This document shows positions 2,772 through 34,014 of a stretch of 35,863 nucleotides of DNA, in pieces (the first letter of the stretch is position 1; each line of letters starts with the position of its first letter). The stretch spans positions 2,923,626 through 2,959,488 of the forward strand of contig NZ_LR698973.1 of assembly GCF_902381825.1 (NCBI RefSeq). The letters are read 5' to 3'. Source of the stretch: Pseudocoprococcus catus (GTDB lineage: Bacteria; Bacillota; Clostridia; Lachnospirales; Lachnospiraceae). A program made the translations under genes and the position numbers. Below the pieces are notes generated by a model, which was not told the origin of the DNA, made no database searches, and saw only the letters and a list, made by a program, of their open reading frames with translations.

Positions 2772-2799
2772 TTGCACCACCGGTGAGTTTTGATATAAT
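2772..2799 (+). promoter_or_regulatory. Promoter for Rpn-like copy 1
   Basis: TTGCAC, a 16-base spacer, then TATAAT with a TGA extension (extended -10). It lies just after the recR terminator and 22 bases before the preferred ATG at 2822. It overlaps the upstream GTG at 2783, which argues against that GTG as the start. Confidence 0.6.
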
Positions 2800-2821
2800 T
2801 AAAGGAGATTCTATTGATATA

Positions 2822-3745
2822 ATGTGTATGCAGGATAATACGAATTATAACCGTAATTATAAGGACAGTCTTTTCAGATTTATTTTCAATAATAAAGAGG
2901 CGGCACTTTCGCTTTATAATGCCGTCAATGACAGTGATTATCAGGATGCAGATGCGATTGAATTTTATACGATGAGTGATTTCCTGTACATGGGGATGAA
3001 GAATGACCTTTCTTTTCTCATTGATTGGAATTTGAATATATTCGAGCATCAGAGTACCTATAATCCGAATATGCCGCTGCGTGGTTTTATTTACACGGGC
3101 TCGGCTTTTAAGAAATATATTGAAAAGAATCATCTGGATATGTATGCCAGTAAGCAGTTGACGATTCCCGTTCCTCGTTATTATGTCTTTTATAATGGTC
3201 TGAGGAAGTCTGAGGACGAAATAATTCTTCGGTTAACAGACAGTATGGCAGGTACAGATGTTGTTGGAAAATCTTCTGCAGAATTTACGGCCCATATGGT
3301 AAATATTAACGCTGGACACAGCACAAAGATGATTAAGCGTTGCCCATTGCTTCATCAGTATTCACTGTTTGTGGCGGTTTTGCGTGAAAATATTGCGGAG
3401 GGTTTGCCGCTTAATGATGCTATTGAGTCAACAGTTACGGATTGTATAAATCAGGGTGTCCTTGCAGAGCTTTTACGTGCACACAGAGCGGAGGTTACCA
3501 ATATGTTATTTAAAGAATATGATAGTGCCGCACATATTGCTTCGGAAAAGGAAATTAGTTATGAAGAAGGAGTTCAAAAGGGACGTCTTATTGAACAGGA
3601 AATGACACAACGTGAAAAGAAGCGTGCGGATAAATTGCTTAATGCATTGGTTCTGGCTTATCATGACCAAGGAAAATCTATAGAAGAAATTGCGGCTCTT
3701 TGTGAAGTGGCTAAGAGTGATGTTGAAAATATGTTAGGAAAATAA
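2822..3745 (+). CDS. Rpn-like PD-(D/E)XK nuclease, copy 1
   Basis: Member of the PD-(D/E)XK nuclease-related families annotated as Rpn recombination-promoting nuclease or putative transposase; related E. coli Rpn proteins are DNA endonucleases that stimulate RecA-independent recombination. From the ATG at 2822 it has 307 residues. The NYKDSLFRFIF start is family-typical, and the catalytic-like segment NDLSFLID then EHQST (D68, E75, Q77) is followed by NMPLR. The C-terminus is a helix-turn-helix-like tail (SIEEIAALCEVAKSDVENML). The start is chosen because AAAGGAG lies 14-15 bases upstream and the alternative GTG at 2783 overlaps the promoter; ATG 2828 is also possible. Two diverged relatives lie near 27 and 33 kb. 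Substrate and role are not visible here. Confidence 0.85.
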   Translation: MCMQDNTNYNRNYKDSLFRFIFNNKEAALSLYNAVNDSDYQDADAIEFYTMSDFLYMGMKNDLSFLIDWNLNIFEHQSTYNPNMPLRGFIYTGSAFKKYIEKNHLDMYASKQLTIPVPRYYVFYNGLRKSEDEIILRLTDSMAGTDVVGKSSAEFTAHMVNINAGHSTKMIKRCPLLHQYSLFVAVLRENIAEGLPLNDAIESTVTDCINQGVLAELLRAHRAEVTNMLFKEYDSAAHIASEKEISYEEGVQKGRLIEQEMTQREKKRADKLLNALVLAYHDQGKSIEEIAALCEVAKSDVENMLGK

Positions 3746-26540: not shown

Positions 26541-26557
26541 AGAAGAGCGCGAGACGG
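26541..26557. repeat. Right att-like direct repeat within tRNA-Gly
   Basis: The partner of 20629-20645; it covers the 3' acceptor end of tRNA-Gly copy 3. Confidence 0.6.
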
Positions 26558-26618
26558 GACTCGAACCCGCGACCCCGACCTTGGCAAGGTCGTGCTCCAC
26601 CAACTGAGCCACTCGCGC
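26546..26618 (-). tRNA. tRNA-Gly (GCC), copy 3 of the cluster
   Basis: GCGCGAG acceptor pairs with CTCGCGC, discriminator T, anticodon loop TTGCCAA (GCC) and T arm GGGTTCGAGTCCC. The CCA end is not encoded. It is identical to the two other copies and last to be transcribed. Confidence 0.95.
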
Positions 26619-26649
26619 ATAATAAAGATAATATTCACTTTTTGTGAAG

Positions 26650-26722
26650 AGCGCGAGACGGGACTCGAACCCGCGACCCCGACCTTGGCAAGGTCGTGCT
26701 CCACCAACTGAGCCACTCGCGC
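26650..26722 (-). tRNA. tRNA-Gly (GCC), copy 2 of the cluster
   Basis: Identical 72-base sequence plus discriminator. The spacer to copy 3 is about 31 bases and carries a short TTCAC-type sequence shared with the next spacer. Confidence 0.95.
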
Positions 26723-26749
26723 ATAAAGATGATATTCACTCTTGTGAAG

Positions 26750-26822
26750 AGCGCGAGACGGGACTCGAACCCGCGACCCCGACCTTGGCAAGGTCGTGCT
26801 CCACCAACTGAGCCACTCGCGC
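26750..26822 (-). tRNA. tRNA-Gly (GCC), copy 1 of the cluster
   Basis: Identical to copies 2 and 3 and nearest the promoter. Three perfect copies imply recent amplification or homogenisation. Confidence 0.95.
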
Positions 26823-26881: not shown

Positions 26882-26949
26882 CAGAAAAAAGGCAAAAAGT
26901 TAAAAAAAATTCAAATTGTATATGCTATTGAAACAATATAGAAGCAACG

Positions 26950-26986
26950 AATGAGATGAAATATAGAGGGAATATCTCATCTCATT
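26950..26986. terminator. Hairpin after Rpn-like copy 2
   Basis: AATGAGATGA pairs with TCATCTCATT over a 17-base loop, just past the Rpn stop on the minus strand. There is no clear U run, so terminator function is uncertain. Confidence 0.45.
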
Positions 26987-26994
26987 CATTTTGG

Positions 26995-27957
26995 TTAAGA
27001 GAAAAACTGGATTTTATTTTCTAATTCTTCTTTACTCATATGCATCAGAACACTTGCTTCATTCATTGTAATTTTCTTTAATCGTAATAATTGAGATATC
27101 AGTTCAATTTTGCCCTCGATTTTTCCAGCGGTTTTGCCATCCTGTATCATCTCTTCAATTGCTTGGCACATATCGATTTGTTCATCTCCTTTCTGAAAGT
27201 GAATAGGGGTATTGGTTATTGCGCCAATAACACGTGCGGCTGATATATCTATATTCATTCTGGGATTATTATGAATAAAATCAGCTAATTTATTTTTGTC
27301 TTTTGCGTATTTGATACATCCGAGTACTTCTCTTAAGCTGGAGTCAAATTTGTTCAAATCTTCATCTGAAATTTTTGATGGTTCAATGAGATGTAGGTGG
27401 TAGTTTTGTATATATTTTGCATAGTCGTGCTTTTGAATATCAGAATCCATCATATCGAATAAAGACAATGGCCCGTCCCATGCATTTGTATTGAAATAAA
27501 GCACAAGTGTGATGACAGGGATGAGCTTGTCGGTTTTATAAAAACCAGATAAGTATTCAGCGCGACTTATTTTGGCTGTATGAGCGTGTTTGTGTGCGGA
27601 TGCAATTTCTGTAACTTGACGTCCATATTGGAGTGCGTCATAGATCATATTTCTTACAGGCATGGCATAATGAACATTTGTCTGATTTTCAATTCCTAAT
27701 AATACGTAAACGACGGATTGATGTGTCTTGATTGATGCAGATTTAAGAATATCTCGGTATTGTTGAACGGACGCATGAGATTTAATATCTTGAGTATTTT
27801 CAATGTTTGTGGGTAATGCAATTTCGGTGATATCCAATTCGTGTAAATTCTCAGCATGGATGACTGGATGCCCGTCATAAATGAGATAATTAAACGCATC
27901 TGCAAATATTTTATTTTCTCTTATGTAAGCTTTTGTAATCCTATCTATTGCTCCTAT
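26995..27957 (-). CDS. Rpn-like PD-(D/E)XK nuclease, copy 2 (AUA start)
   Basis: 320 residues if read from the ATA at 27957. A PD-(D/E)XK-like core has YVLLGIENQTNVHYAMPVRNM (E-x-Q, then MP-x-R). Next come LIPVITLVLYFN..WDGP, SLREVLGCIKYAKDKNKL and NMNIDISAARVI, then CQAIEEMIQDGKTAG and a short helical tail. The first ATG/GTG/TTG codon in frame is a TTG at 27837, but the 40 codons before it clearly match copy 3 (TKAYIR.N, FADAFNY, YDG). An in-frame TGA at 27966-27964 leaves only AAT and CTA before ATA. GAGGTG ends 7 bases before this ATA. AUA initiation at low rate is the best reading; a mutated start is the alternative. Confidence 0.75.
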   Translation of the reverse strand: MGAIDRITKAYIRENKIFADAFNYLIYDGHPVIHAENLHELDITEIALPTNIENTQDIKSHASVQQYRDILKSASIKTHQSVVYVLLGIENQTNVHYAMPVRNMIYDALQYGRQVTEIASAHKHAHTAKISRAEYLSGFYKTDKLIPVITLVLYFNTNAWDGPLSLFDMMDSDIQKHDYAKYIQNYHLHLIEPSKISDEDLNKFDSSLREVLGCIKYAKDKNKLADFIHNNPRMNIDISAARVIGAITNTPIHFQKGDEQIDMCQAIEEMIQDGKTAGKIEGKIELISQLLRLKKITMNEASVLMHMSKEELENKIQFFS

Positions 27958-28017
27958 TAGATTTCACCTCTTTCATGTAAACAAGGAGTTATAAAGAATA
28001 TTGCTTACTTTAGCTTT

Positions 28018-28046
28018 ATCATACCATGCAAATCTGCAGGATACAA
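28018..28046 (-). promoter_or_regulatory. Promoter for Rpn-like copy 2
   Basis: Minus strand: TTGTAT, 17 bases, TATGAT. The predicted transcript starts near 28011, about 54 bases before the ATA. Confidence 0.6.
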
Positions 28047-28106
28047 GAATAAATTTTCACATTGTGTCGATAGAATGGGCAGGATGTCGGTGGGATATGG
28101 AAAATG

Positions 28107-28156
28107 TAAAAAATAGAGCCGATATCAGATTTTCATCTTACGATATCGACTCTATT
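28107..28156 (-). terminator. Terminator of amtB
   Basis: On the minus strand AATAGAGTCGATATC pairs with GATATCGGCTCTATT (one wobble) over a 15-base loop, followed by TTTT. Confidence 0.85.
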
Positions 28157-32894: not shown

Positions 32895-32955
32895 GAAGAT
32901 GACGTAAGCACTTTCCATCTGGATGTCTCTAAACACTGTAAGGGGAGTGTACAAC

Positions 32956-34014
32956 ATAGGAGCAGCAGATGCAGTTACAAAGGCTTACATACGAAAAAAC
33001 GAAGTATTCGCAGACGCATTCAACTACTTTATGTATGATGGAGAACAGAAGATTCGACCGGAACAGTTAAGAGAGCTGGATACCACTGAGATAGCGATAC
33101 TTTTGAATGAGAAAGATACTAAAGATAATAAAAATACAAAAGATAGAAAATATAATAAAGATAACAACGCATCCGAATCGAAGCCGGTACAGAAATATCG
33201 TGATCTTCTGAAATCGGCCGCCATTATGGAAGATGGTGAGGCGGCTTATGTGCTTTTGGGAATAGAGAACCAGACGGAAGTGCATTACGCAATGCCGGTT
33301 AGAAATATGCTGTATGATGCCATGCAGTATAATCAGCAGGTTGCCGATACTGCCGCGAAGCATAAGGAAGAAAAAAGCCGTAGAGACAAGCAGAAACAAA
33401 AGATTAGTAATGCAGAGTTTTTGTCTGGCTTCCATAAAGATGATAAGTTAATCCCGGTGATTACACTGGTATTGTTTTTCAACGCCGGGGAGTGGGATGG
33501 CCCGCGTTCGCTGTTTGATATGCTGGATATGTCAAATCCGATTTTTGAGAAATATGCGCAGGATTATAAGCTGCATATTATCAGTCCGCAGCAAATTGCT
33601 GATGATGAGTTGGAGAAGTTTCATTCCAGCCTGAGAGAAGTGATAGGATGCATTAAATATTCAAAAGACAAAAACAAATTGGCGAATTTTATTCAGGATA
33701 ATCCTAGAATGAATATGGAGATTGAAGCAGCCAGGGTGATTGAAATGATTACACAGATAGAGATTGAAAAAGAGGAGGTGGACAGCATGGGAAACGTGAA
33801 TATGTGTAAGGCAATCGAGGATATGGTACAGGATGTTGTAGATGAGAAGAAGGATGATTGGCTGAGTGAGGGCAGACTTGCCGGGGTTGCCGAAGGCAGG
33901 CTTCAGCTTTTGACAACGCTTATCCAGTCAGGAAAAGTAACTGTTAAAGAAGCGGCAACTCTTATGGATATGACTCAGGAGGAATTTTTAGCCAAGAGTA
34001 AGACAATTTCCTGA
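32956..34014 (+). CDS. Rpn-like PD-(D/E)XK nuclease, copy 3 (probable AUA start)
   Basis: 352 residues from ATA 32956. It has the same order as copy 2: TKAYIRKNEVFADAFNY, a Lys/Asp/Asn-rich linker near 55-70, then the core YVLLGIENQTEVHYAMPVRNM. Next come LIPVITLVLFFNAGEWDGP, SLREVIGCIKYSKDKNKL, NMCKAIEDMVQD and a C-terminal helical tail. An in-frame ATG at 32923 and GTG at 32947 exist, but the ATG has no ribosome site and the GTG abuts it. AGGGGAG (32941-32947) sits 8 bases before the ATA, exactly where homology with copy 2 begins. Role as for copy 1: nuclease-like, possibly recombination or mobile DNA. Confidence 0.82.
   Translation: MGAADAVTKAYIRKNEVFADAFNYFMYDGEQKIRPEQLRELDTTEIAILLNEKDTKDNKNTKDRKYNKDNNASESKPVQKYRDLLKSAAIMEDGEAAYVLLGIENQTEVHYAMPVRNMLYDAMQYNQQVADTAAKHKEEKSRRDKQKQKISNAEFLSGFHKDDKLIPVITLVLFFNAGEWDGPRSLFDMLDMSNPIFEKYAQDYKLHIISPQQIADDELEKFHSSLREVIGCIKYSKDKNKLANFIQDNPRMNMEIEAARVIEMITQIEIEKEEVDSMGNVNMCKAIEDMVQDVVDEKKDDWLSEGRLAGVAEGRLQLLTTLIQSGKVTVKEAATLMDMTQEEFLAKSKTIS

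Follow-up and report, generated by a model that had tools for sequence, protein, structure and literature searches.

The window analysed here is a 35,863-nt stretch of Pseudocoprococcus catus (NZ_LR698973.1), and all coordinates below are positions in it. Its minus strand carries rpn copy 2, a putative nuclease gene that very probably begins at an ATA codon. Published work describes Rpn proteins as toxins (RpnL) whose genes also yield, from an internal start, an antitoxin (RpnS), and reports the same for a gene from C. difficile expressed in E. coli (available part of PMC10327210). The class is further defined by DNA cleavage and toxicity on the part of RpnL, countered by RpnS, and by phage defence. 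The features of copy 2 are given below; Shine-Dalgarno (SD) strength is the SD:anti-SD energy in kcal/mol over positions −20 to −5 relative to the codon, more negative values being stronger.

26995..27957, minus strand: rpn copy 2 coding sequence (RpnL), 320 codons plus stop, matching PF04754 (32.1 bits, cut-off 21)
27955..27957, minus strand: ATA, proposed start codon of rpn copy 2 (RpnL), from column comparison, SD energy and the absence of a canonical alternative upstream
27965..27970, minus strand: GAGGTG, SD core, 7 bases before the ATA (ΔG −14.4 kcal/mol)
27964..27966, minus strand: in-frame TGA closing the copy 2 frame upstream
27835..27837, minus strand: TTG, first residue of copy-2-like database proteins, rejected as a start (SD −2.7)
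26995..27171, minus strand: proposed intragenic RpnS, 58 codons plus stop, from the ATG at codon 263 (SD −10.1), a place conserved in the family
26946..26990, minus strand: terminator-like hairpin of 19 pairs 3′ of rpn copy 2 (consensus match only)

Read 5′ to 3′, the frame of copy 2 runs TGA (27966–27964), AAT (27963–27961), CTA (27960–27958), ATA (27957–27955), and among the 40 codons, ATA 27957 included, that precede TTG 27837 there is no ATG, GTG or TTG, exactly as placed by an earlier note on this DNA. The GAGGTG to which that note had drawn attention is present, and its energy exceeds the chance level, taken from ATA codons inside the genes of the set (n = 431, 1st percentile −11.9); the resemblance to copy 3 that it had reported for the codons upstream of TTG 27837 is equally apparent (IGAIDRITKAYIRENKIFADAFNYLIYDG from the ATA of copy 2, IGAADAVTKAYIRKNEVFADAFNYFMYDG in its counterpart). 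The remaining six in-frame ATA, ATT or ATC codons of this N-terminal stretch have SD energies of −7.4 or weaker. Folding of the copy 2 leader gave no structure above that of shuffled sequences (z 0.67).

Four paralogues from the genus, all with ATA, shared 66% protein identity over codons 2–39, 59% over codons 40–262 and 41% over codons 263–320. Differences per site at codon positions 1, 2 and 3 of codons 2–39 were 0.23, 0.15 and 0.50, a third-position excess which argues that the stretch is translated. The three codons upstream of the ATA were unconserved, save that two paralogues share a Val, at a codon overlapping the SD.

ATA also stands at the start column of rpn copy 3 (32923–34014; PF04754, 26.9 bits), at 32956–32958 and with an SD of its own, which the earlier note had overlooked. 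Copy 3 probably starts there rather than at ATG 32923, because the ATA has an SD and the ATG an energy of only +0.2.

32956..32958, plus strand: ATA, proposed start of rpn copy 3 (SD −10.3; upstream GTG and ATG both +0.2)
32940..32949, plus strand: SD-like AAGGGGAGTG 5′ of the copy 3 ATA
33787..33789, plus strand: proposed RpnS start of copy 3, an ATG at codon 278 counted from the ATA, whose SD (−17.0) is the strongest in the C-terminal part

A near relative, G039 (amt gene 95% identical in DNA to that of the window, RecR protein identical), lacks rpn copy 2 between amt and the tRNA genes and has three other rpn copies elsewhere, two of which (L040/L073 and L039/L074) carry ATA at the start column, each with its own SD. 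An ancestral start followed by a frameshift in copy 2, an idea prompted by database proteins beginning MNTIGAAD, was dropped because the paralogues showed ATA with its own SD.

Homologues were found in 64/395 Lachnospiraceae genomes (E ≤ 1e-30), in 19/116 genomes of each of two further Lachnospiraceae sets, and in 9/391 (E ≤ 1e-25) and 8/391 (E ≤ 1e-30) genomes in class-wide sampling. A scan of genome contigs gave five loci, two in Lachnospiraceae metagenome-assembled genomes (MAGs) and three in a MAG labelled Myxococcales; in 13 genomes of the latter's family no DNA match to amt was found. Two scans of viral contigs confirmed no relative, and plasmids scanned by DNA gave no match. Of 166 rows aligning near the N-terminus, 132 reach residue 1, reading ATG in 88, TTG in 26, ATA in 9, GTG in 8 and ACA in 1, with no ATT or ATC. 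The 34 rows falling short of residue 1, for which the column is extrapolated, were excluded; 31 of these show a codon other than ATG, GTG, TTG or ATA and are mostly distant members whose start is apparently offset. When rows with those four codons were reduced to one per identical first 120 residues (the ACA row, L264, being left out), 103 distinct homologues remained: 70 with ATG, 19 with TTG, 8 with ATA and 6 with GTG. Two plasmid homologues outside this set (L320 and L321) have TTG.

The near-cognate ATA of copy 2 sits at the start column of its homologues. In a tree of 97 of the 103 genes (length filter) the ATA genes are scattered, four changes being needed and at least three forced by well-supported branches; the four paralogues of the genus form one group (support 95). 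The earlier note had asked whether homologues all carry ATG, with copy 2 a recent mutation; the column count and the tree both show that they do not, and its proposal of AUA as the likely start of copy 2 is well supported by comparison across homologues.

The eight ATA genes come from five genomes: copies 2 and 3 from the window, L040 and L039 from G039, L133/L081 from G120, L162/L090 and L102 from G112, and L150 from G062. Their SD energies range from −10.3 to −16.0, and 7/8 are stronger than those of all 431 internal ATA codons. Mean energies in the first 73 genes were −13.2 for ATA (n = 8), −11.25 for ATG (46), −11.55 for GTG (6) and −11.04 for TTG (13); copy 3, which has the weakest SD of the ATA genes (−10.3), lies below the ATG mean in strength and within the ATG range. 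When all canonical codons upstream to the in-frame stop, and the first three downstream, were checked in each ATA gene, every one had an SD of −5.7 or weaker in 8/8 genes, the sole exception being a GTG in L162 (−13.4), 58 codons into the gene. Between the ATA and the in-frame stop upstream, copy 2, L039, L133 and L102 lack any canonical codon; in L162 the 50 codons upstream are free of them. A ninth ATA gene, L322 (SD −11.1, no canonical codon upstream), lies on a human-faecal scaffold labelled as phage (MT835884.1, unverified); its relative L323, with 93.5% identity across the 739 aligned bases from codon 2, has GTG at the start column. The match between the two begins at codon 2, and no upstream match was detected. 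From the codon, its SD, its recurrence at the column and the protein conservation from codon 2, all seen by comparison, we infer that translation initiates at ATA 27957.

As a control, the start codons of 31 RecR genes were 30 ATG and 1 TTG; amt was uninformative, only 2/21 aligning to residue 1. A 400-kb portion of G039, scanned blind, contained 285 long open reading frames (ORFs), 250 of which had a canonical start with an SD of −8 or stronger within the first 120 codons. Among the other 35, ATA with an SD of −11 or stronger occurred once, in an rpn gene; the SD filter let through 20 codons of 15 kinds, so that ATA sites of this sort are rare and an enrichment of ATA is not shown.

Protein databases may carry traces of the same start. 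Among the best 120 of 3789 homologues, the start column held Met in 65, Ile in 38 and Val in 5, the motif not being seen in 12. In the 43/108 readable proteins with Ile or Val, that residue is preceded by an extension of 3 to 45 residues, and several of these extensions resemble a translated SD (e.g. MKGEGI, ..RGIY, MSLNTVRGV), a pattern to be expected were gene callers unable to use ATA. In P0012, P0020, P0023, P0025 and P0029, Val follows a three-residue extension. The copy-2-like proteins P0001 (254 member sequences), P0003, P0004 and P0007 start at the TTG, 40 codons late, which suggests that the alleles behind them also lack a canonical start. Annotation thus gives many proteins of the family wrong N-termini. 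Modular swaps were also seen, P0003 and P0004 joining a copy-2-like head to a different tail and P0002 having a different head.

The proposed internal start recurs across the family. The RpnS motif was found in 89 of the 95 genes long enough to hold it, with ATG in 69, GTG in 14 and other codons in 6, the last in part an effect of the column being misplaced by the motif search (the start reads MRN, not MC, in L162 and L102). An SD of −10 or stronger stood at this place in 94% of the 89 homologues, compared with 2.3% of the remaining internal Met codons (n = 709), and in 9/9 ATA genes the strongest C-terminal start was an ATG (SD −10.1 to −17.0). Given the conserved SD and the published work on Rpn, we infer that copy 2 is a Rpn/YhgA-like nuclease gene with a second, internal start for a putative C-terminal antitoxin, RpnS. 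The RpnL start codons of the same 89 genes were ATG in 59, TTG in 16, ATA in 8 and GTG in 6.

AUA is a very rare and weak start codon. Our overall reading, to which we assign a probability of about 0.72, is that copy 2 combines an ATA start, an internal RpnS start and a weak RpnL start kept by selection for antitoxin excess. Initiator tRNA would read the AUA on a ribosome held by the strong SD, at a reduced rate and hence with less full-length RpnL, which is probably a DNA-cutting, self-toxic protein; RpnS, beginning at an SD and AUG, would be made in excess. With a weak RpnL start and a normal RpnS start the antitoxin would therefore stay in excess, and selection would keep the RpnL start weak. 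We lean towards the setting of the toxin:antitoxin ratio as the role of the AUA. The earlier note's suggestion, that the nuclease is kept low or made to depend on the state of initiation factors, is plausible, but its ‘very low’ may be too strong, because S. aureus reporters with non-canonical starts gave ∼10% of AUG in poor medium, and the ccpN AUA up to 30% in rich medium (available part of PMC13009471).

Several observations weigh against this reading. ATG is the commonest RpnL start (70/103 homologues, 59/89 in the RpnS set), so that the family can do without a weak start. Copy 3, L040 and L150 have one or two upstream in-frame canonical codons, all without an SD. The relatives of copy 2 read as DNA are all at most ∼60% identical to it, its alleles being known as database proteins, and L322 and L323 both come from unverified scaffolds.

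The ATA might instead be a start without regulatory role, having arisen from ATG, GTG or TTG while a strong SD sustained synthesis, and persisting by drift. The SD sites are indeed strong enough for initiation, and the family starts most often with ATG. Drift is nevertheless unlikely: ATA is retained by four paralogues with differences at no fewer than half of their third codon positions, the start is the only one of their ten all-Ile columns with a single shared codon, and ATA arose separately several times. Less likely again is that the AUA acts as a sensor, looser start-codon discrimination (loss of initiation factor 3, IF3, or phage takeover of initiation) raising RpnL and not RpnS and so freeing the nuclease as a defence. 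An ATT start candidate was found in infC of G026, G112, G120, G116 and G062 (SD about −13), and G039 has two adjacent ATT candidates (−10.8 and −13.9). The infC genes of these six Lachnospiraceae genomes (loci L293–L298) thus probably begin with an ATT that has a strong SD, so that the ribosomes of these bacteria probably already use near-cognate starts; an effect of IF3 on rpn is possible, this probable AUU start being the sole hint of it.

It is very improbable that copy 2 is dead through loss of its start codon, as might be supposed from the want of a canonical in-frame start, its absence at the G039 site and the truncated allele P0007: 320 codons are open and the SD is kept, the other ATA genes are open too, P0001 represents 254 member sequences, and codons 2–39 are conserved. 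Translation from TTG 27837, the first canonical codon and the one at which gene callers begin P0001, P0003, P0004 and P0007, has scarcely any likelihood, since protein conservation begins at codon 2 with none upstream; this start has no SD and would drop codons 1–39, which are more conserved (66%) than codons 40–262 (59%). An out-of-frame start at ATG 27976 or GTG 27967, both just upstream, followed by a frameshift is extremely unlikely, no search aimed at a shift motif having been made, as GTG 27967 overlaps the SD, and SD plus ATA, unlike the ATG/GTG arrangement, is common to ATA genes in other genomes.

The copy 2 stretch (window ∼26938–28107) is missing at the G039 site (L016, 2600–3174), as a cassette gained or lost; a candidate rpn remnant there was rejected, the sequence being tRNA-side flank. 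Three tandem tRNA-Gly (GCC) genes lie at window positions 26545–26822. The presumed Rpn copy 1 (2783–3745) has no Pfam match; its GTG 2783 has no SD, ATG 2822 has one of −7.8 and an internal ATG at codon 241 one of −13.2. NCBIfam gave no match, and PADLOC none for copy 2. As regards a nuclease fold, no PDB relative was found by sequence, and the AlphaFold model is poor (mean predicted local distance difference test, pLDDT, 50).

AUA starts and Rpn toxin–antitoxin genes are each known, and what appears to be new is a recurrent, conserved AUA start in a toxin-like family; no literature joining the two was found among the matches listed, subscription journals lying mostly outside the coverage. 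Repeated origin and later retention of a rare start codon in one such family, here from gut bacteria, suggest that the toxin:antitoxin ratio of a gene-within-gene system is under selection. E. coli infC and pcnB start with AUU, a near-cognate codon that limits synthesis. Copy 2 resembles them in its near-cognate start, whereas they use AUU, are single genes and have no internal antitoxin. Closer in codon are S. aureus infC, ccpN and citZ, which, in the available part of PMC13009471, likewise start with AUA after a strong SD, the ccpN start being conserved in B. subtilis; these are chromosomal regulators or housekeeping genes whose starts were measured, whereas rpn is a multi-copy nuclease family read from sequence. 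With the RpnL/RpnS genes of PMC10327210, as far as its available part describes them, copy 2 shares the PF04754 match and an internal, SD-backed ATG near the C-terminal domain, and differs from them in that its long protein would start with AUA.
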